Below, in pieces: positions 17,855 to 26,643 of a stretch of 64,000 nt of DNA. The stretch lies in the NCBI RefSeq assembly GCF_900188485.1, contig NZ_FZPH01000001.1:372001-436000 (forward strand), given 5' to 3'. The number at the start of each line of letters is the position of its first letter. The stretch's first letter is position 1. This DNA is from Asanoa hainanensis. GTDB taxonomy: Bacteria > Actinomycetota > Actinomycetes > Mycobacteriales > Micromonosporaceae. The translations under genes and the position numbers were made by a program. Under the pieces are notes generated by a model that made no database searches, was not told the DNA's origin, and worked only from the letters and a program-made list of their open reading frames with translations.

Positions 17855-18385
17855 ATGAGCGAGCAGGATGTATCGGTGCTGAGCCGGCCGGTCCGGCGCT
17901 TCGTGTTCCACACGGGGCGGTCGTACGACCAGTTCCGCAAGCAATGGGAACGTGCCGTGCCGTCCTGGTCCTGGGGCACGGCGGTAGCGGAGGCCAAGGG
18001 CGGCGGAGGCTGGCCGGCCCTGGAAAACCTGTCGAACCGCAGCGCGGGCGACGGCCTGGTCAACATCTCGACGTTCGACCCGAGCGCGGTCATGCGGCTG
18101 GCAGGCCACGAACTGCGCGCGGTCACGTACCTGGCCGACAACCTGGTGATCGAAGAGGGCCTCTACAAACACGACCCGGCGATCATCGAATATCTGCCGG
18201 TGCGGCTGACCATCTCAGAGCAGCCCGGCGATGACTCGACGCTGACCTTCGACAAACCGTGCGACCTGTTCGCGGGCTACGCGATCGCGGACCTGACCGA
18301 CCACGCGACCCAGGTCGAAGAGGCCATCGCCACGGTCCTGCAGAAGGTCGACCTGCCGGTCCCACCGGAGCTGACGAGGCCTTAA
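17855..18385 (+). CDS. DUF302-like domain protein
   Basis: A 176-aa soluble protein from ATG 17855. LRAVTYLADNLVIEEGLYKHDPAIIEYLPVRLTI, then LTFDKPCDLFAGYAIADL, follows the DUF302 layout (helix, short linker, P-x-R/N-V strand, late 'DKP' loop). The family's function is unknown. It is monocistronic behind the gnd terminator. The stop overlaps the stop of the convergent NACHT gene (shared TTAA at 18382-18385). A truncated second copy of the last 22 codons lies in inverted orientation at 26400-26465; the shared tail contains KVDLPVPPE. Confidence 0.7.
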   Translation: MSEQDVSVLSRPVRRFVFHTGRSYDQFRKQWERAVPSWSWGTAVAEAKGGGGWPALENLSNRSAGDGLVNISTFDPSAVMRLAGHELRAVTYLADNLVIEEGLYKHDPAIIEYLPVRLTISEQPGDDSTLTFDKPCDLFAGYAIADLTDHATQVEEAIATVLQKVDLPVPPELTRP

Positions 18386-21300
18386 AGCTGGACGACGTCG
18401 CCGTCGACCGTGACCTTCAGGCCCGGCCGCCGCAACGCGGTCACGTCCGCGAGTGGGACGTCCGAGAGGACCAGCTCGACCAGGCTTGTCATCCGCAGCA
18501 GCACGCCGAGATCGGCCAAGGCCTCGCAGCCCTGAAAGAAGACCCACTCGAGTTTCTCGAGCGAGCCCAGGGCGATGATGTCCTCGAGCTCGGGGAGGCC
18601 CGCCAGCGTGAGGTGCGTGAGCTCGGTGCACCTTTCCACCCCACCCAGGCTCCTGAGCCGAGCGTGGCTCCGTCCGTTGACCACGAGCGAACGCAGCGTC
18701 GCCGGCAGGAACGCCAGGTCGGCCCGATCGTCGGGGACCGTGACGGTGAGATCCTGCAGCGACCCACTCTCAGCCAGCACGTCGTGGTCGGCGGCCGGGA
18801 TCATCTGTGCGTGCAACTGCCGCAGCGCGGGCAGCGCCGCGAGCACGGCGAACGTGTCCACGTCGGAGAAGGCAACATCCACGTAGGTCAGCGCGGGCGC
18901 CTCTGTGAGATGGCTCAGATCGCTGACGGGGGTAAAGGCGAGCACGAGCCGGGCAAGCCTCGTCGGTGAGACGGCCGTGATGTCCGTCAACGACCCACAG
19001 TTCCTGACGTCGAGCGACGCGAGCGGCGCGCTCTCGAGCCCGGCGAGCGAGCGCAACGCACCGCACGTGTCGAGCCGCACACTCGCGAGCTCGGTCAGCC
19101 CGGTGAGCGGCTCCAACGACTCCAGGTCGGGCTCGAAGCCCAGGCTCAGCTCGGTGAGCGTCGGCACCCGCCCGATGATCTCCAGGTTCGCGCGGCCGGC
19201 CGGCACGCTGAGCCTGACCGCGCGGAGCATCCGTAGCTCGGAGAGGTACGGAAGGTGATCCAGGTCCGTCAACGACAGTGTCCCGTCCTCCAGCGGGGAG
19301 TCGGCAAGGACGGTCCGAACGTATGCCTCTGGCGGGAAGCTCCGCCACGCCCGCAGCAGCTCGCGTACGACCGATCGGCGGCGGTCCGTGCTGTACACAG
19401 CCAGAGCGATGAGCGCCGGGTCTCCGCCGATCTGGGCCAGCGCCCGGACCGTGGCGGCGGCCTCGTTCGCGCGTAGGCGGCCCAGCCCGGCCAGGTGCGG
19501 CACGGCCGCCACGCCGGCCGCCGCTAGCGCCTGCGCGTCGCGGATGGATTTCGGCGGAACGAGGTTTTCCAGAGCGACAGCAACCTGCTCGCGTGTCTCG
19601 GGCTTCAGCTGTGGTGAGGTTTCCAGGCAGGCGACCGCCAACAGGTGGAGCCGGTGGCGGAGCCGCGGTCGTTCACGACCGGCGGCCAGGAGCCCGTTGA
19701 CAAGTTCTTCCCGCTGGTTCAGCGACGCGTGGCCCGCGGCCATGATGACGACCTCGCGCCAAGAGTCCTCGCGCGCACGTTCGATCAGCATCGACACCAG
19801 GTTCTCGTCGACAGCGGCCTTGGCTGCCAGGTATTCCTGGAACGTCTTGTGCACGAAGTCGACCCGGCCGGACGAGGGTTGCCTCAGGACGCCACTGCGC
19901 AGCAGGAGATAGTCGAGGACCTCCTCGGCGGAGTGGCTGATCTCCGTGAGTCGCAGGCGCTTGGCCACCTGCGGCTCGATGTCGGAGCGATCGGCTTCAC
20001 TTCGTTCGGCGAGCTGGAACCACCAGGCGATGTTCTGGAGAATGTCGAGCTTCTCGCGCAGCGATAGGCGTATCTCGGCGTTCGGGACATTCCGCTCGTC
20101 GTCCCGGCGTTCGACCAACATCTCCAGCGCGACGCGGTACAGGTGCATCCGGTCTTGAGGAATCGAGCTGCGCATTCCACGGTTGAGCGCGCAGAGCAGA
20201 GCACAGAGCAACGGGGTTGTCGCCAACTGACGCAAGGCGGGCTGGTTGAGGATGCGGGCGGCCAGAGGCACGGCCAGCGCGAGGATTTCCCGCTTCTCGC
20301 TGCCGTCCTCCACGCCGGACACGGCAGACTCGTGCCAGTGTCTGATGAACTGCACGACGTCGGCGAGGCTCATCGGCTCCAGCCGGTAGGTACCCAGCCC
20401 GACCTCGTCGAGCCAACCTTCTTTCACGGCGGCAGGACGCGAGGTCAGGATCACCCTGACGTTGAACTCGTCAACGAGTCGCTGCAGCCACGGCTTGACC
20501 GCAGAACGCTCAGCCGGTGGCAACTCGTCGAGCCCGTCGACCAGCAGTAGGCAGCGACCGCTGTCCAGCTGCCTGCTCATCCAGCCCTTGGGCATGCGGT
20601 CGGCCAGGTTCGGCGCGGCGGTTTCCAGGAACTGGCCAGGGGTCGGGAGTTTCGCGCCTCGGTAGTGCCGGAGCTGGATAAAGACCGGAACCACCGCGTT
20701 CCATAGTTCCAACGGACCCACGAAGGATTGTTTGGCGGCGTTCACCGCGAGCCATTGGAGCAACGTCGTCTTGCCGGAGCCCGCATCACCGACAACGAGC
20801 GCGCTATCTGCGAAGGCGAGTAACTCGTCGATCCGACGACTACCAAACTCGCCGAACAAGCTATGTTTGACGTCGTAGCTCACCAACGTCGAGAGATGCG
20901 TCGTCTTAGCGGCTGTCCGCGAACCCTTCAACGGGGACCAATGGGCGCGCAAGACTCGATCTTGGATGCGAAAGGCGCTCGGCGCCGCAACCGTCACGAC
21001 GGTCGGCGGCGACAAGAACCGAACGTTAGTGGATTCTCTTAACCACTGTGCCCCAGCCCACAAGGCATCAAGCTTGTCAGCCGCGAAAGCACCATGAATG
21101 CGTTTGTCGGCGCGGTCCGCGTTCTCAGCCGTCAGCGTGATGTAAGCGACGCTCAGTGCGTAGCGACTCTGGGTGCCACTGGCATCCAGGCCGAAGAGCT
21201 GGAGCCAGTCGAGGTGTCGGGCAAGGTGCATCCGGTAGCGCCCGAGAAACTCGTCATCCGAGCCCTCCGGGCTGAGCTTGGCGGCCGTCGGCATCTCGTC

Positions 21301-21849
21301 GAGGATGCGGCGCACCAGCGTCAGCAGTTCGCTGTCGCGGGTCATCAGGTCGCGGGCCGCGGCGCTCTGGAAGTCCGGCAGGCTCATCACCATGTCGATG
21401 ACGTAGTTGCTTAGGTCGCGGACCAGCTGGTCCACGAAGACCCGGCCCGCGTCGTTCAACAGCGCGACCTCACGGACGAAAGTCGGGTCGTTTTTCAGCT
21501 GCTGCTCCAGGGCGGCCGGGTCGAGATCCATCTCCAGGAAATCGGCGGCTGACAGGTCGCTGCGGTCCAGCGTGCCGGCGACGGCCAGGCTCGCCGCCTC
21601 ACGCTCGTTGTCCAGCAGCGACGGGTACTCCACCGCGAGGATGGGCTCCAGCTTTCGCGCGACCTCGTCCGCGATCTCCCCGAGCCGGCGCGTCGCCCGG
21701 CTGCGCTGGAACGGCTCGGTGAACCGGCCCGCCAGCAGCGCGTCTGGTGTCGCGTTCTTCAGCGTCAGCCGGTGCTTCCGCGCCCAGGCCCGGTAGGTCA
21801 TCGTGGCCGCCGACGTCGCCAGCCGGAACAGGGTCGCTTCGGTGACCAT
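18382..21849 (-). CDS. NACHT-LRR STAND NTPase, candidate anti-phage protein
   Basis: An 1155-aa protein from ATG 21849 (GGAGG 8 bases upstream). Residues 1-245 are an all-helical N-terminal domain resembling the NACHT N-terminal helical (NNH) domains of actinobacterial NTPases. The NACHT domain follows: Walker A GDAGSGKTTLLQ (354-365), Walker B LLLVDGLDEL (434-443) and sensor-like VRVILTSRP (465-472). A helical region to about residue 840 leads into at least ten irregular leucine-rich repeats (LTELSLGFEPDLESLEPL, LASLDVRNCGSLTDI and similar) up to the C-terminus. Bacterial NACHT proteins of this architecture (bNACHT) can defend against phage; the LRRs would sense and the N-terminus act. No adjacent effector gene is present. 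The middle of the gene is visibly less GC-rich than its neighbours. Confidence 0.88.
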   Translation of the reverse strand: MVTEATLFRLATSAATMTYRAWARKHRLTLKNATPDALLAGRFTEPFQRSRATRRLGEIADEVARKLEPILAVEYPSLLDNEREAASLAVAGTLDRSDLSAADFLEMDLDPAALEQQLKNDPTFVREVALLNDAGRVFVDQLVRDLSNYVIDMVMSLPDFQSAAARDLMTRDSELLTLVRRILDEMPTAAKLSPEGSDDEFLGRYRMHLARHLDWLQLFGLDASGTQSRYALSVAYITLTAENADRADKRIHGAFAADKLDALWAGAQWLRESTNVRFLSPPTVVTVAAPSAFRIQDRVLRAHWSPLKGSRTAAKTTHLSTLVSYDVKHSLFGEFGSRRIDELLAFADSALVVGDAGSGKTTLLQWLAVNAAKQSFVGPLELWNAVVPVFIQLRHYRGAKLPTPGQFLETAAPNLADRMPKGWMSRQLDSGRCLLLVDGLDELPPAERSAVKPWLQRLVDEFNVRVILTSRPAAVKEGWLDEVGLGTYRLEPMSLADVVQFIRHWHESAVSGVEDGSEKREILALAVPLAARILNQPALRQLATTPLLCALLCALNRGMRSSIPQDRMHLYRVALEMLVERRDDERNVPNAEIRLSLREKLDILQNIAWWFQLAERSEADRSDIEPQVAKRLRLTEISHSAEEVLDYLLLRSGVLRQPSSGRVDFVHKTFQEYLAAKAAVDENLVSMLIERAREDSWREVVIMAAGHASLNQREELVNGLLAAGRERPRLRHRLHLLAVACLETSPQLKPETREQVAVALENLVPPKSIRDAQALAAAGVAAVPHLAGLGRLRANEAAATVRALAQIGGDPALIALAVYSTDRRRSVVRELLRAWRSFPPEAYVRTVLADSPLEDGTLSLTDLDHLPYLSELRMLRAVRLSVPAGRANLEIIGRVPTLTELSLGFEPDLESLEPLTGLTELASVRLDTCGALRSLAGLESAPLASLDVRNCGSLTDITAVSPTRLARLVLAFTPVSDLSHLTEAPALTYVDVAFSDVDTFAVLAALPALRQLHAQMIPAADHDVLAESGSLQDLTVTVPDDRADLAFLPATLRSLVVNGRSHARLRSLGGVERCTELTHLTLAGLPELEDIIALGSLEKLEWVFFQGCEALADLGVLLRMTSLVELVLSDVPLADVTALRRPGLKVTVDGDVVQL

Positions 21850-21933
21850 CGACACGCCTCCGACGTGAAGGGATGCCCAGCCTAGTGCGGCGGCCTTGCC
21901 TTGACATCGGGGGAAAGGTTTAGCGTCGGGTGC

Positions 21934-22317
21934 ATGCTGATCGGGGAGTTGGCCGAGCGGGCCGGCACGAGCACCCGGGCCTTGCGCTACTACGAGACGC
22001 ACGGGCTGTTGTCGGCCGCGCGGTCGGCCAACGGGTACCGGGTCTACGACGACGCGGACCTGCGGGTGGTGCGGGAGATCCGGACTCTGCTCGGGATCGG
22101 GTTCGGGCTCGACGACATACGTCCGTTCGTCGACTGCCTGCGGGCCGGCCATTCGTCCGGGGACGTCTGTCCGGACTCGGTCGCCGTGCTGCGGCGCAAG
22201 ATCGCTGAGGTGGACGCCGGGATCGAGCGGATGCGTCAGGTGCGCGAGCGGCTCCACGGCCAGCTGACCGTCGCCATCGAGAGTCGGGAGAGCACATGCT
22301 CCAGCAGGACCTGCTAG
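21934..22317 (+). CDS. MerR family regulator
   Basis: A 127-aa regulator. LIGELAERAGTSTRALRYYETHGLLSAARSANGYRVYDDADLRVVREI is a typical MerR winged helix (residues 1-50). A dimerisation helix follows, with Cys residues in FVDCL and DVCPDS and two more at the extreme C-terminus, which could sense thiol stress or metal. Its 3' end overlaps the thioredoxin gene by 22 bp, so the two form an operon and redox sensing is a reasonable inference. TTGACA at 21901-21906 with CCTT/AAGG half-sites at 21899-21918 is a possible promoter-operator. It is divergent from the NACHT gene. Confidence 0.88.
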   Translation: MLIGELAERAGTSTRALRYYETHGLLSAARSANGYRVYDDADLRVVREIRTLLGIGFGLDDIRPFVDCLRAGHSSGDVCPDSVAVLRRKIAEVDAGIERMRQVRERLHGQLTVAIESRESTCSSRTC

Positions 22318-22637
22318 TCACCGTTACCGACGAGACCTTCGCCGATCTCGTCCTCGCGTCGCCTCGGCCTATCGTCGTCGACGTCTGGGCCGACTGGTGC
22401 CCGCCCTGCCACGCGATCTCGCGTAGCCTCGCCGAGCTCGCCGTCGAACTCGACGGGCGGATGACCGTGGCCACCCTCGACGCCGATGAGAACCCGGCGA
22501 CCTGTCGGGCGTACCAGGTCAGGTCCTTGCCCACGCTTCTGATCTTCCGTGGCGGCGAGCTGGTCAGCGCCACCGTCGGCGCCCGCCCCAAGTCGGCCCT
22601 GCGCACCCTGCTCGTGGAAAACGGGTTGCCGGCCTGA
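22296..22637 (+). CDS. trxA: Thioredoxin
   Basis: A 113-aa thioredoxin. VVDVWADWCPPCHAIS carries the redox pair Cys35-Cys38; the dipeptide is PP rather than the classical GP, which usually makes the protein more reducing-specific or alters partner choice. The later SLPTLLIFRGGELV contains the conserved cis-Pro. There is no signal peptide, so it acts in the cytoplasm as a disulfide reductase. The start overlaps the end of the MerR gene by 22 bp. MerR-thioredoxin pairs are common in actinobacteria, and this thioredoxin is probably induced by the MerR protein under oxidative stress. Confidence 0.92.
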   Translation: MLQQDLLVTVTDETFADLVLASPRPIVVDVWADWCPPCHAISRSLAELAVELDGRMTVATLDADENPATCRAYQVRSLPTLLIFRGGELVSATVGARPKSALRTLLVENGLPA

Positions 22638-22685
22638 CCGGTGTCTGATGAGCTGAAAAACCACGACACAGAGAGGATTCCCGAG

Positions 22686-22805
22686 ATGCGTCCAGCTAGC
22701 GAGTTCGTTCCGTCGGCCAGTTCGGTTCACTCAGCCGCCCACGCGAAGGACAGCTCGCTTGCGCACGCTCAATCTCGGAATTCTCGCCCATGTCGACGCC
22801 GGTAA
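22686..22805 (+). CDS. Possible 39-codon leader ORF upstream of the tet gene
   Basis: ATG 22686 is preceded by AGAGGA and opens a 39-codon frame rich in Ser, Ala and His (MRPASEFVPSASSVHS at the start, CRRR at the end). It stops at TAA 22803-22805, overlapping the first 47 bp of the ribosomal-protection gene in another frame. A GTGTC/GACAC stem (22641-22645 with 22665-22669) lies upstream. Leader peptides control other tetracycline resistance genes by ribosome stalling; that role here is an inference. Confidence 0.45.
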   Translation: MRPASEFVPSASSVHSAAHAKDSSLAHAQSRNSRPCRRR

Positions 22806-24699
22806 GACCAGCCTGACCGAGCGGCTTTTGCACGCCGCCGGTGTGATCGACGAGCTCGGCTCTGTCGACGACGGCAGCACCCGCACCGACACGCTCGCCC
22901 TCGAACGGCAACGCGGCATCACGATCAAGGCCGCCGTCGTGTCGTTCCCGATCGGCGACGTGACCGTCAACCTGATCGACACGCCCGGCCACCCGGACTT
23001 CATCGCCGAGGTGGAGCGGGTCCTCGCCGTGCTCGACGGCGCCGTCCTCGTGGTCTCCGCCGTCGAGGGCGTCCAACCACAGACCCGGGTGCTGACCCGG
23101 GCGTTGCGCCGCCTGGGCATCCCGCTGCTGGTCTTCCTCAACAAGGTCGACCGCGGCGGTGCCCGGCCGGAAGCGCTGCTCGCCGACCTCTCGCGACGGC
23201 TCGGCCTGTGCCCGCAGCCGATGGGCGCCGTCCGGGACGCTGGGACGCGCGCGGCCACCTTCGTACCCGGTGAATCCGGTCTGGCCGACCTGCTCGCCAC
23301 ACGCTCCGACAGCGTCCTGGCCGCCTTCGTCGAAGACGGCGGCGTCCCGGCGGGCACGCTCCGCGCCGAGCTCGCCGTCCAGACCGCCAAATCCTGGATC
23401 CATCCCGTGTACGCCGGTTCGGCGATCACCGGCACCGGCGTACCCGAGCTGATGACCGGGATCCACGACCTGCTCCCGGCCACGCACGGTGACGAGAGCG
23501 CCGCGCCGTCCGGCACGGTGTTCAAAGTGGACCGTGGCGCGGCCGGCGAGCGGCTGGCGTACGTGCGGATGTTCGACGGCATCCTGGCAGTGCGCGACCG
23601 GGTCGGCGCCGGCACGAAGGTCACCGGGATCGGCGTCTTCGAGAACGGTGCCCTCACCGCGCGCTCGACGGTGTCAGCCGGGCGGATCGCGGTCGTGCGC
23701 GGCCTTTCGGAGGTCCGGATCGGCGACACCCTCGGCCGGCCACGGCCCGGCGCCCAACAGCATTTCGCGCCGCCGTCGCTGGAGACCGTCGTGGTGCCAG
23801 ACCGTCCCGCCGACGCCGGCGCGCTGCACGCGGCCCTGACCGAGCTGGCCGAGCAGGACCCGCTGATCAATCTGCGCCGCGACGACGTGCGTGACGAGAC
23901 GTCCGTGTCGCTCTACGGCGAGGTCCAGAAGGAGGTGATCCAGGCGACCCTGGCCGACGAGTACGGCCTGGCGGTCACCTTCCGCGAGTCGACCACGATC
24001 TGCGTGGAGCGGGTGGTCGGCACGGGCGCGGCGTACGAGCTCAAGCACGAAGCGCCGTTCCTGGCCACCGTCGGCCTGCGGGTCGAGCCCGGCCCGGTCG
24101 ACTCGGGGACCACGTTCCGGCTCGGCGTCGAGCTCGGGTCGATGCCGCCGGCGTTCTTCGTGGCCGTCGAGGAGACCGTCCACGAAGTTCTGAGCGCCGG
24201 GCCGCACGGCTGGCGGGTGCTCGACTGCGTGGTGACGATGACGCACTCGGGCTACTACGCGCGGCAGAGTCACGCGCACGGCACGTTCGACAAGAGCATG
24301 TCGAGTACGGCCGGCGACTTCCGCAACCTGACGCCCCTGGTGTTGATGGCCGCGCTGCGTCGGGCCCGCACCGCCGTGCACGAGCCGGTGCACCACTTCC
24401 GCCTGGAAGTGCCGGCCGACCTGCTCGGCGCGGTGCTGCCGGTGCTGGCCAAGCACCGCGCGCTGCCCACCGACACCAGCACGGCGGGCCCGGTCGCGGT
24501 CGTCGAGGGCGACATCCCGGCCGCCCGGGTGCACGCCCTGGAGACCCGGCTGCCGTCACTGACCCGCGGCGAGGGCGTGCTGGAGAGCGCGTTCGACCAC
24601 TACGCCCCGGCACCGTGCCCGTGGCCGGAACGCCCGCGCACCGACCACAACCCGCTGGACCGCCGCGAGTACCTGCTGCACGTACAACGTCGGGTCTAA
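22759..24699 (+). CDS. Tetracycline resistance ribosomal protection protein (OtrA/Tet group)
   Basis: A 646-aa GTPase related to EF-G that releases tetracycline from the ribosome. It starts at TTG 22759 (GAAGGA 8-13 bases upstream). G-domain motifs are AHVDAGKTS (G1), QRGITI (G2), DTPGHPDF (G3) and LNKVD (G4). The C-terminal half has the domain IV signature MTHSGYYARQ and STAGDFRNLTPLVLMAAL, typical of TetM/OtrA proteins rather than EF-G, and length also fits. It has its own leader ORF and lies 121 bp after trxA. Its stop overlaps the convergent TetR gene by 4 bp. It could be a self-protection or intrinsic resistance gene; no tetracycline biosynthesis genes are in the window. Confidence 0.9.
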   Translation: MRTLNLGILAHVDAGKTSLTERLLHAAGVIDELGSVDDGSTRTDTLALERQRGITIKAAVVSFPIGDVTVNLIDTPGHPDFIAEVERVLAVLDGAVLVVSAVEGVQPQTRVLTRALRRLGIPLLVFLNKVDRGGARPEALLADLSRRLGLCPQPMGAVRDAGTRAATFVPGESGLADLLATRSDSVLAAFVEDGGVPAGTLRAELAVQTAKSWIHPVYAGSAITGTGVPELMTGIHDLLPATHGDESAAPSGTVFKVDRGAAGERLAYVRMFDGILAVRDRVGAGTKVTGIGVFENGALTARSTVSAGRIAVVRGLSEVRIGDTLGRPRPGAQQHFAPPSLETVVVPDRPADAGALHAALTELAEQDPLINLRRDDVRDETSVSLYGEVQKEVIQATLADEYGLAVTFRESTTICVERVVGTGAAYELKHEAPFLATVGLRVEPGPVDSGTTFRLGVELGSMPPAFFVAVEETVHEVLSAGPHGWRVLDCVVTMTHSGYYARQSHAHGTFDKSMSSTAGDFRNLTPLVLMAALRRARTAVHEPVHHFRLEVPADLLGAVLPVLAKHRALPTDTSTAGPVAVVEGDIPAARVHALETRLPSLTRGEGVLESAFDHYAPAPCPWPERPRTDHNPLDRREYLLHVQRRV

Positions 24700-25289
24700 G
24701 AACGCGACCCGTGGGCCTCGACCAGGCCGTCGACACCGCGTAGGAAGGTCGCGCAGATCGCGGCCGGGTCGAACAGGCACCCGGCCGCCATGGCGCCGTC
24801 GCGCAGCATGACGAAGTGCTGCGCGGCGCCTTCGGCCCCGGTCTCGTCGATGCGTGCCATCAGGGTGTTGATCGTGTCGAGGAACCACGAGCGGTGGGCG
24901 AGGACGGCCTGGTGCACGGGATGGGCGAGATCGGGATACTCGGCCACCGCGTTCAGGAAGGCGCATCCGCGGAACCCGGGCGACTGGATGCCCTCGGCGA
25001 TCGCCGCCGCGACCGCGCGGACGGCGTCGCTCGCCGAGATGCCCGCGCCGGTGATGGCCGTTTCCACCTGGTCGCGAATGGCCTGGTCGGCGCTCTGGAG
25101 GTAGGCGAGAACCAGGTCTTCCTTGCCCGGGAAGTGCCGGTAGAAGGTGGCCCGGGTCACCTTGGCCTCGGCGACGATCCGGTCGACACCCACCGAATGG
25201 ATGCCTTCCGTGTAGAAGACGCGGGTTGCCGTGGTCAGGAGCCGAAGGCGTGCCTCGGACGGCTGGGTCCCGGGTTCGCTGCGAGCCAT
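24696..25289 (-). CDS. TetR/AcrR family regulator
   Basis: A 197-aa repressor-type regulator. LLTTATRVFYTEGIHSVGVDRIVAEAKVTRATFYRHFPGKEDLV is the TetR helix-turn-helix (residues 18-62), followed by an all-helical ligand-binding domain with SPGFRGCAFLNAVAEYPD, a motif common in the YxaF/LmrA-like branch. It is divergent from a small membrane-protein operon. Two related inverted repeats in the 107-bp gap (25308-25317 and 25359-25374) are likely operators, one covering its own promoter and one the divergent promoter. The 3' end overlaps the tet gene by 4 bp convergently, so it is not necessarily the tet regulator. Confidence 0.9.
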   Translation of the reverse strand: MARSEPGTQPSEARLRLLTTATRVFYTEGIHSVGVDRIVAEAKVTRATFYRHFPGKEDLVLAYLQSADQAIRDQVETAITGAGISASDAVRAVAAAIAEGIQSPGFRGCAFLNAVAEYPDLAHPVHQAVLAHRSWFLDTINTLMARIDETGAEGAAQHFVMLRDGAMAAGCLFDPAAICATFLRGVDGLVEAHGSRS

Positions 25290-26398: not shown

Positions 26399-26399
26399 G

Positions 26400-26465
26400 C
26401 TAAGGGCTCGTCGGCTCCGGTGGCACCGGCAGGTCCACCTTGAGCAGCACGCAGGCGATGGCCTG
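26400..26465 (-). pseudogene. Remnant of a DUF302-like gene (last 22 codons)
   Basis: The minus strand encodes a tail containing AIACVLLKVDLPVPPEP and then a stop. Sixteen of its last 21 residues match the C-terminus of the intact protein encoded at 17855-18385, and the DNA matches at about 54 of 66 positions. No upstream part of the gene remains; instead a 61-bp tandem repeat begins 21 bp further up. At about 82% DNA identity it is not a recent duplicate. It is inverted relative to the intact gene and its 3' end points towards it. Confidence 0.65.
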
Positions 26466-26485
26466 TCGGCTGTCCGAGCGTGGCC

Positions 26486-26643
26486 AAGGGCACCTCCGCG
26501 ATAGCAGCTCGACCACAAAGGCGCGGTCACGGCGGGAGCCTGCCTCAAAGGCACTCCCGCGACAGCAACTCGACCACGAAGGCGCGGTCACGGCGGGAGC
26601 CTTCCTCAAAGGCACTCCCGCGACAGCAACTCGACCACGAAGG
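26486..26643. repeat. 61-bp direct tandem repeat, 2.6 copies
   Basis: Copies begin at 26486, 26547 and 26608 (the last is partial, 36 bp). The second and third copies are nearly identical; the first differs at several bases. Each junction can fold: CGGGAG and CTCCCG pair around an inner CCTT/AAGG stem. The 61-bp unit does not keep a reading frame. Apart from the DUF302 remnant, the 370-bp gap 26279-26648 contains no gene. Confidence 0.8.

Follow-up and report, generated by a model that had tools for sequence, protein, structure and literature searches.

In this work we focused on a solitary gene in a 64,000-nucleotide stretch of the Asanoa hainanensis genome (contig NZ_FZPH01000001.1, positions 372,001 to 436,000; hereafter the window). 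The host genome amounts to 8.64 Mb over 44 contigs. The gene occupies positions 18382..21849 of the minus strand and encodes, in an open reading frame (ORF) without internal stop, a protein of 1155 amino acids comprising an N-terminal helical NNH1 domain, a NACHT NTPase domain and C-terminal leucine-rich repeats (LRRs). Its ATG start codon lies at 21849, separated by seven bases from a GGAGG sequence at 21857-21861. The 3' end shares 4 bp with a convergent unclassified ORF (17855-18385), and 84 bp separate the 5' end from a facing group of merR, thioredoxin and EF-G/TetM-like genes. With a convergent neighbour on the left and a facing block on the right, this NNH1-NACHT-LRR gene is a one-gene unit, as the original prediction from this DNA had held.

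All parts of the protein are encoded on the minus strand. The NNH1 domain (residues 8-184, positions 21298..21828) was recognised by the Pfam family PF22733 with an E-value of 2.5e-35 and a score of 122.6 bits, against a curated cut-off of 27. Residues 246-338 (20836..21114) form a linker of 93 residues, the longest among 53 aligned sequences (median 26), followed by the NACHT domain at residues 351-508 (20326..20799; PF05729, E 2.7e-21). The alignment of the 53 sequences located the Walker A motif GDAGSGKT at residues 354-361 (20767..20790), the Walker B motif LLLVDGLDE at residues 434-442 (20524..20550) and a TSRP motif at residues 469-472. A further motif after the NACHT domain, FVHKTFQEYL (residues 665-674, 19828..19857), contains H667, which is invariant in 53/53 sequences. 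Eleven of the 13 motif positions checked are invariant throughout the alignment; the variable ones are T361 (T in 38 sequences, S in 15) and T469 (T in 52). By its NACHT profile and both Walker motifs the protein is a NACHT STAND NTPase.

The LRR array starts at residue 872 (18415..19236, the end of the last repeat being estimated). A pattern script chained 13 LRR strand cores, the first of them doubtful, which leaves about 12 credible repeats. The LRR_4 profile reached 25.7 bits in the whole-protein scan, against a cut-off of 27, and a separate scan of the C-terminal 397 residues raised it to 34.8 bits. The best matches among sequences of the Protein Data Bank (PDB) were internalin-type LRRs, over residues 845-1138. 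These C-terminal repeats place the protein among the bacterial NLRs, i.e. NACHT plus LRR proteins. The original prediction of a real gene with NACHT-LRR architecture and intact Walker motifs is thereby supported by the open reading frame, by motif conservation and by profile and pattern searches; the irregular LRR array it described is present, with about 12 repeats instead of about ten.

The N-terminal domain was characterised through relatives found by a contig scan with one peptide pattern, from which the best 80 of at least 543 confirmed relatives were used. A protein could be defined for 77 of them, split into set A3 (51 relatives) and set A6 (26 relatives). NNH1 is present in 74/77 (51/51 in A3 and 23/26 in A6), and is replaced by a helix-turn-helix (HTH) domain in two A6 relatives. 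NNH1 is a curated Pfam family whose Pfam line shows no assigned activity. Since no Pfam family other than NNH1 matched the 52 N-termini of A3, and no position of residues 1-184 is invariant (of the polar residues, E167 and R171 are nearly so), an enzyme looks unlikely. A profile of the 52 N-termini gave six weak matches among PDB sequences, the best with an E-value of 0.039 and none convincing. A literature search for NNH1 and NACHT together returned one unrelated paper only, within a coverage that mostly excludes subscription papers.

Across the family, hydrophobicity within NNH1 peaks in the first 20 residues (mean Kyte-Doolittle value 0.95), those of the window protein being less hydrophobic than those of many relatives. 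A transmembrane segment was considered and rejected: averaged over 19 residues, the Kyte-Doolittle value reached 1.6 in only 4/52 sequences, and 0.82 in the window protein. The genome encodes a second NACHT protein (L002, contig 20), with an N-terminal DUF4062 domain and C-terminal HEAT repeats; the available part of a 2026 preprint (PMC13174449) describes DUF4062 as a TIR-like NADase that acts in defence against phage. The N-terminal slot is therefore exchangeable, holding NNH1 in most relatives, HTH in some and DUF4062 in the second protein, which fits the expectation for an output domain and agrees with the earlier proposal that the N-terminus is the acting part. That proposal had also described an all-helical N-terminus without recognisable nuclease or protease motifs; it turns out to belong to a family, while a conserved catalytic pattern is indeed lacking, and NNH1 showed no match to a developmental regulator family. 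We favour NNH1 as a putative oligomerising, possibly membrane-acting effector or adaptor. Action of its first helix on the membrane is offered as a hypothesis only, because it is based on family-wide hydrophobicity and the window protein is weaker in this respect.

The composition of the gene is foreign to its surroundings. Its GC content is 66.8%, against a mean of 71.3% for the 62 called genes of the window, and falls to 61% in residues 191-338 and to 64% in both the NACHT and winged-helix parts, in line with the less GC-rich middle noticed originally. At third codon positions (GC3) the value of 0.845 is the second lowest of the 62 genes, itself included (mean 0.932, standard deviation (SD) 0.030). 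Among the 45 window genes longer than 150 amino acids, as called by a simple gene caller of our own, the NACHT gene deviates most in codon usage (score -1.098; mean -0.741, SD 0.109).

The junction carrying the gene was compared between the window genome and five genomes of the same genus (G001-G005). The gnd gene, the left neighbour (17855..18385, plus strand, 176 amino acids, no Pfam match) and merR (21934..22317, plus strand), the divergent right neighbour, are each present in all six genomes. An NNH1-NACHT gene lies between left neighbour and merR in 0/5 of the other genomes, although the flanking genes are there, and the gene is accessory at this junction. Elsewhere in the genome an NNH1 match was found in G001 and G003 (28% and 27% identical to the window protein) and none in the remaining three, with at most 16 candidates scored per genome. 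The gene is thus not conserved at one locus in all relatives; its patchy presence and foreign composition are borne out by the junction comparison, GC3 and codon usage.

In G002, G003 and G004 the left neighbour is directly followed by the EF-G/TetM-like gene, thioredoxin and merR, in the orientation opposite to that of the window; in G003 and G004 additional genes separate the EF-G-like gene from thioredoxin. In G001 the left neighbour and this block are about 14 kb apart, and in G005 the two sides are on different contigs. It follows from these gene orders that the window genome differs in two respects: the merR-thioredoxin-EF-G/TetM-like block (21888..24700, plus strand) is inverted, and the NACHT gene separates the left neighbour from merR. 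The left neighbour's 3' end recurs, inverted and diverged (54/64 identical bases), at 26399..26464 on the minus strand. No integrase was seen adjoining the gene in the annotation of its neighbourhood. On the upstream side of merR, three genes were found in G003, namely Trypco1, Trypsin_2 and one of 935 amino acids with a sub-threshold tetratricopeptide repeat (TPR) match (L120:1575-6575); G002 carries DUF1540 and DUF2470 genes, and G001, G004 and G005 carry genes that the window has further right. Trypco1 and trypsin genes are paired in predicted conflict systems, according to the available part of PMC7159879. Conflict-type genes are thus present at this junction in 2/6 species, a small number that gives a hint of a hotspot. 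Two other features of the region were recorded: the EF-G/TetM-like GTPase gene (22759-24699), which lies close to merR in each of the six genomes, resembles those of the ribosomal-protection type, and at 26485-26643, upstream of a dehydrogenase gene, 61-bp units are repeated in tandem (2.6 copies, 92% matches).

The gene was probably acquired by horizontal transfer from outside, as judged from its composition and distribution. NNH1 scored over its cut-off in 39/200 genomes of the host's own family (42/200 at E 1e-3) and in 9/396 genomes of a phylum sample (15/396 at E 1e-3), the own genome being counted in both, and in 0/14 control genomes. By their record titles, 79 of the best 80 relatives are actinomycete; the other is from a metagenome-assembled genome (MAG) labelled Thermomicrobiales. 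In a quick tree of 86 sequences the window protein pairs with this MAG protein (SH-aLRT 95, 43% identity), both sequences being on long branches. The MAG contig, 7.3 kb long and carrying a resolvase piece, may be misbinned. In three genomes (G554, G392 and G084) NNH1 matches lie 2.3-3.5 kb apart on one contig, which suggests tandem copies of NNH1 genes.

Mobile elements were also searched. The NACHT part was matched in 14 of 72,556 plasmid records, none of the matches covering 80% of the protein. Two tyrosine recombinases adjoin the NACHT gene in two of the six plasmid regions inspected (L126 and L129) and in none of the other four. Of the five plasmid proteins scanned, four carry HTH and one NNH1. 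The HTH-NACHT proteins are encoded on Streptomyces plasmids (L124:4165-7460, L126:4170-7418, L127:1946-5182 and L129:4182-7415), each gene with a divergent gene of 69-70 amino acids upstream, without Pfam match. Phage-borne copies were rejected: the matches in 4/50,697 phage records were confined to the LRR part and all came from Listeria phages.

Among the relatives the LRR part changes fastest. Mean pairwise identity among 52 relatives (set A2) is 0.36 for NNH1, 0.52 for NACHT and 0.25 for the LRRs. In a Streptomyces clade A, four flanking genes are common to 12/17 members and not shared by the other 5/17, among them one whose upstream DNA is limited to 1.5 kb; in a clade B, two downstream genes are common to 16/20 members, and 4/20 are without any marker. 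Among members with shared flanks, the identities of NNH1, NACHT and LRRs are 0.698, 0.805 and 0.354 in clade A and 0.594, 0.743 and 0.362 in clade B. The ratio of nonsynonymous to synonymous substitution rates (dN/dS) in 13 close pairs is 0.33-0.79 for the LRRs versus 0.05-0.36 for NACHT. It is highest in the LRRs, of five regions compared, in 12 of the 13, the exception being L094/L098 with a higher value in NNH1. The synonymous rate of the LRRs is also raised in several of these pairs, which hints at recombination. Over 11 pairs, 215/395 strand-x positions, which are predicted to face the ligand, differ, compared with 447/1197 other non-core and 37/238 core positions. Fisher's test of strand-x versus other non-core positions gave p 3e-9, a value that is too small because two pairs have one sequence in common and structural positions fall into the 'other' class. 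The change is concentrated on the predicted binding face of the LRRs, positive selection not being established.

The architecture is built like animal and plant immune receptors, and this kind of protein is already known in bacteria. As far as the available part of PMC12169576 goes, proteins with NACHT and LRR are called bona fide bacterial NLRs there, and bacterial NACHT (bNACHT) proteins are tripartite phage defence proteins whose C-terminus is the sensor and whose N-terminus is the effector. The portion available of PMC8195603 treats STAND NTPases linked to LRR, WD or TPR repeats as switches in conflict systems. The term 'undescribed' used originally has to be dropped, as bacterial NACHT plus LRR proteins are in print and NNH1 is a Pfam family. 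In these partial accounts bNACHT proteins and bacterial NLRs share with the window protein the central NACHT, the N-terminal effector position, the single gene and, for the NLR subset, the C-terminal LRRs; anti-phage activity is demonstrated for bNACHT25 and others, whereas the window family is known here from sequence alone. Two NCBIfam families align with the NACHT to winged-helix part, EruA (NF058535, E 2.8e-9) and DS8 (NF053861, E 0.0013), and membership was rejected for both, with 35.7 bits against an equivalog cut-off of 1000 and 16.5 bits against 790, respectively. EruA had no mention among the literature matches listed, subscription papers being mostly outside the coverage. NLRC4 matched residues 345-676 weakly (E 0.011-0.015), and animal NLRs share the NACHT-LRR order. 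The N-terminus of NLRC4 is a CARD, where the window protein has NNH1. NACHT sensors varied by diversity-generating retroelements, as presented in the available part of PMC10907252, likewise have a diversified C-terminal sensor and occur in multicellular bacteria; the part varied there is a C-type lectin, in place of the LRRs of the window protein.

The explanation to which we lean, with moderate confidence, is that the gene encodes an intracellular, self-contained NLR-type receptor, horizontally gained, that would sense phage or other invading genetic elements. We read it as immune because of its architecture, its accessory status, its foreign origin and the evolution of the sensor in its relatives. 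The C-terminal LRR solenoid would bind either a molecule of the invader or a host protein that has been disturbed. Ligand binding would free the nucleotide-locked NACHT module, which would then oligomerise. The output would come from the clustered all-helical NNH1 domains; in the simplest case NNH1 itself would arrest or kill the cell, for example as a helical bundle acting on the membrane with its hydrophobic first helix. Alternatively, the clusters might work through a partner encoded elsewhere. As to such a partner, neighbour clustering at 66/77 loci (11 were skipped, their NACHT gene being missed by the simple gene caller) gave only genes shared in subsets, at most at 24 loci for a broad dehydrogenase-like cluster, and a conserved partner gene was rejected.

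Several observations weigh against an immune receptor. The PADLOC scan of the protein gave nothing better than an E-value of 0.0074. The check for defence-gene neighbours suggested with the original prediction found no known defence gene among the ten window neighbours, so the gene does not lie in a defence island; the sole PADLOC match, of merR to mad1 (E 4.8e-10), is read as a generic MerR match. Eight PADLOC families were matched at 1e-10 among 144 proteins neighbouring the relatives, mostly once each, with no clear excess of defence genes in this set, which stands without a control set. The data on LRR evolution come from relatives of the window gene. Strand-x positions change less than the others in 2/11 pairs, and positive selection at these positions was not established, dN/dS being 0.65 over seven pairs and above 1 in two of them. 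Finally, some of the HTH-NACHT-LRR relatives look like regulators, and the gene has a common site in each of two Streptomyces lineages, a pattern that a resident housekeeping regulator could also show.

These last two points are why a regulatory role has to be considered, in which the protein would be a STAND-type switch for host development or metabolism, controlling host genes or a partner through NNH1. HTH N-termini in 4/5 scanned plasmid relatives and 2/77 chromosomal ones, together with the shared neighbours in clade A (12/17, four markers) and clade B (16/20, two downstream markers), are in its favour. The window protein, however, shows no HTH family up to E 1 in the Pfam scan, as would mark an HTH-type STAND regulator, and none of five sister species has its gene at the locus. 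LRR conservation is also low in precisely those lineages where the site is kept, which would be unusual for a conserved host signal, and we regard a host switch as rather unlikely. The same LRR divergence at shared Streptomyces sites would suit a receptor for allorecognition. So would the record titles of the best 80 relatives, which are concentrated in groups that we take to be mycelium-forming. Such a receptor would tell own from foreign hyphae and arrest mixed cells, as do fungal NLRs, which act in heterokaryon incompatibility according to the available part of PMC12222747. No partner or polymorphic ligand gene was found beside the receptor gene, however, and allorecognition seems improbable to us.

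The gene might also have served a mobile element, by excluding rivals or in the element's own upkeep, and have been left behind in the chromosome. The 14 plasmid records with the NACHT part, the paired tyrosine recombinases in 2/6 regions and the NNH1 in 1/5 scanned plasmid proteins would be explained in this way. Yet no integrase adjoins the window gene, and both recombinase-linked plasmid copies have HTH instead of NNH1; we give this origin only a slim chance.

Returning to the NLR-type receptor, a bolder form of it can be outlined, which we hold to be quite doubtful. In filamentous actinomycetes, NNH1-NACHT-LRR proteins would make up a class of resistosome-like receptors, whose genes some lineages would keep at a common chromosomal site and others would pass on by transfer. 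Their LRRs would have diversified on the ligand-facing side, as in plant NLRs, and their NNH1 domain would act directly on the membrane via its hydrophobic N-terminal helix. If NNH1 does act on membranes, the family would provide a bacterial parallel to the plant resistosome. Orthologues that lie beside the same genes, with conserved NACHT and divergent LRRs, would allow LRR swaps to test what bacterial NLRs recognise, and the value of the window gene is as an entry point to this testable receptor family.

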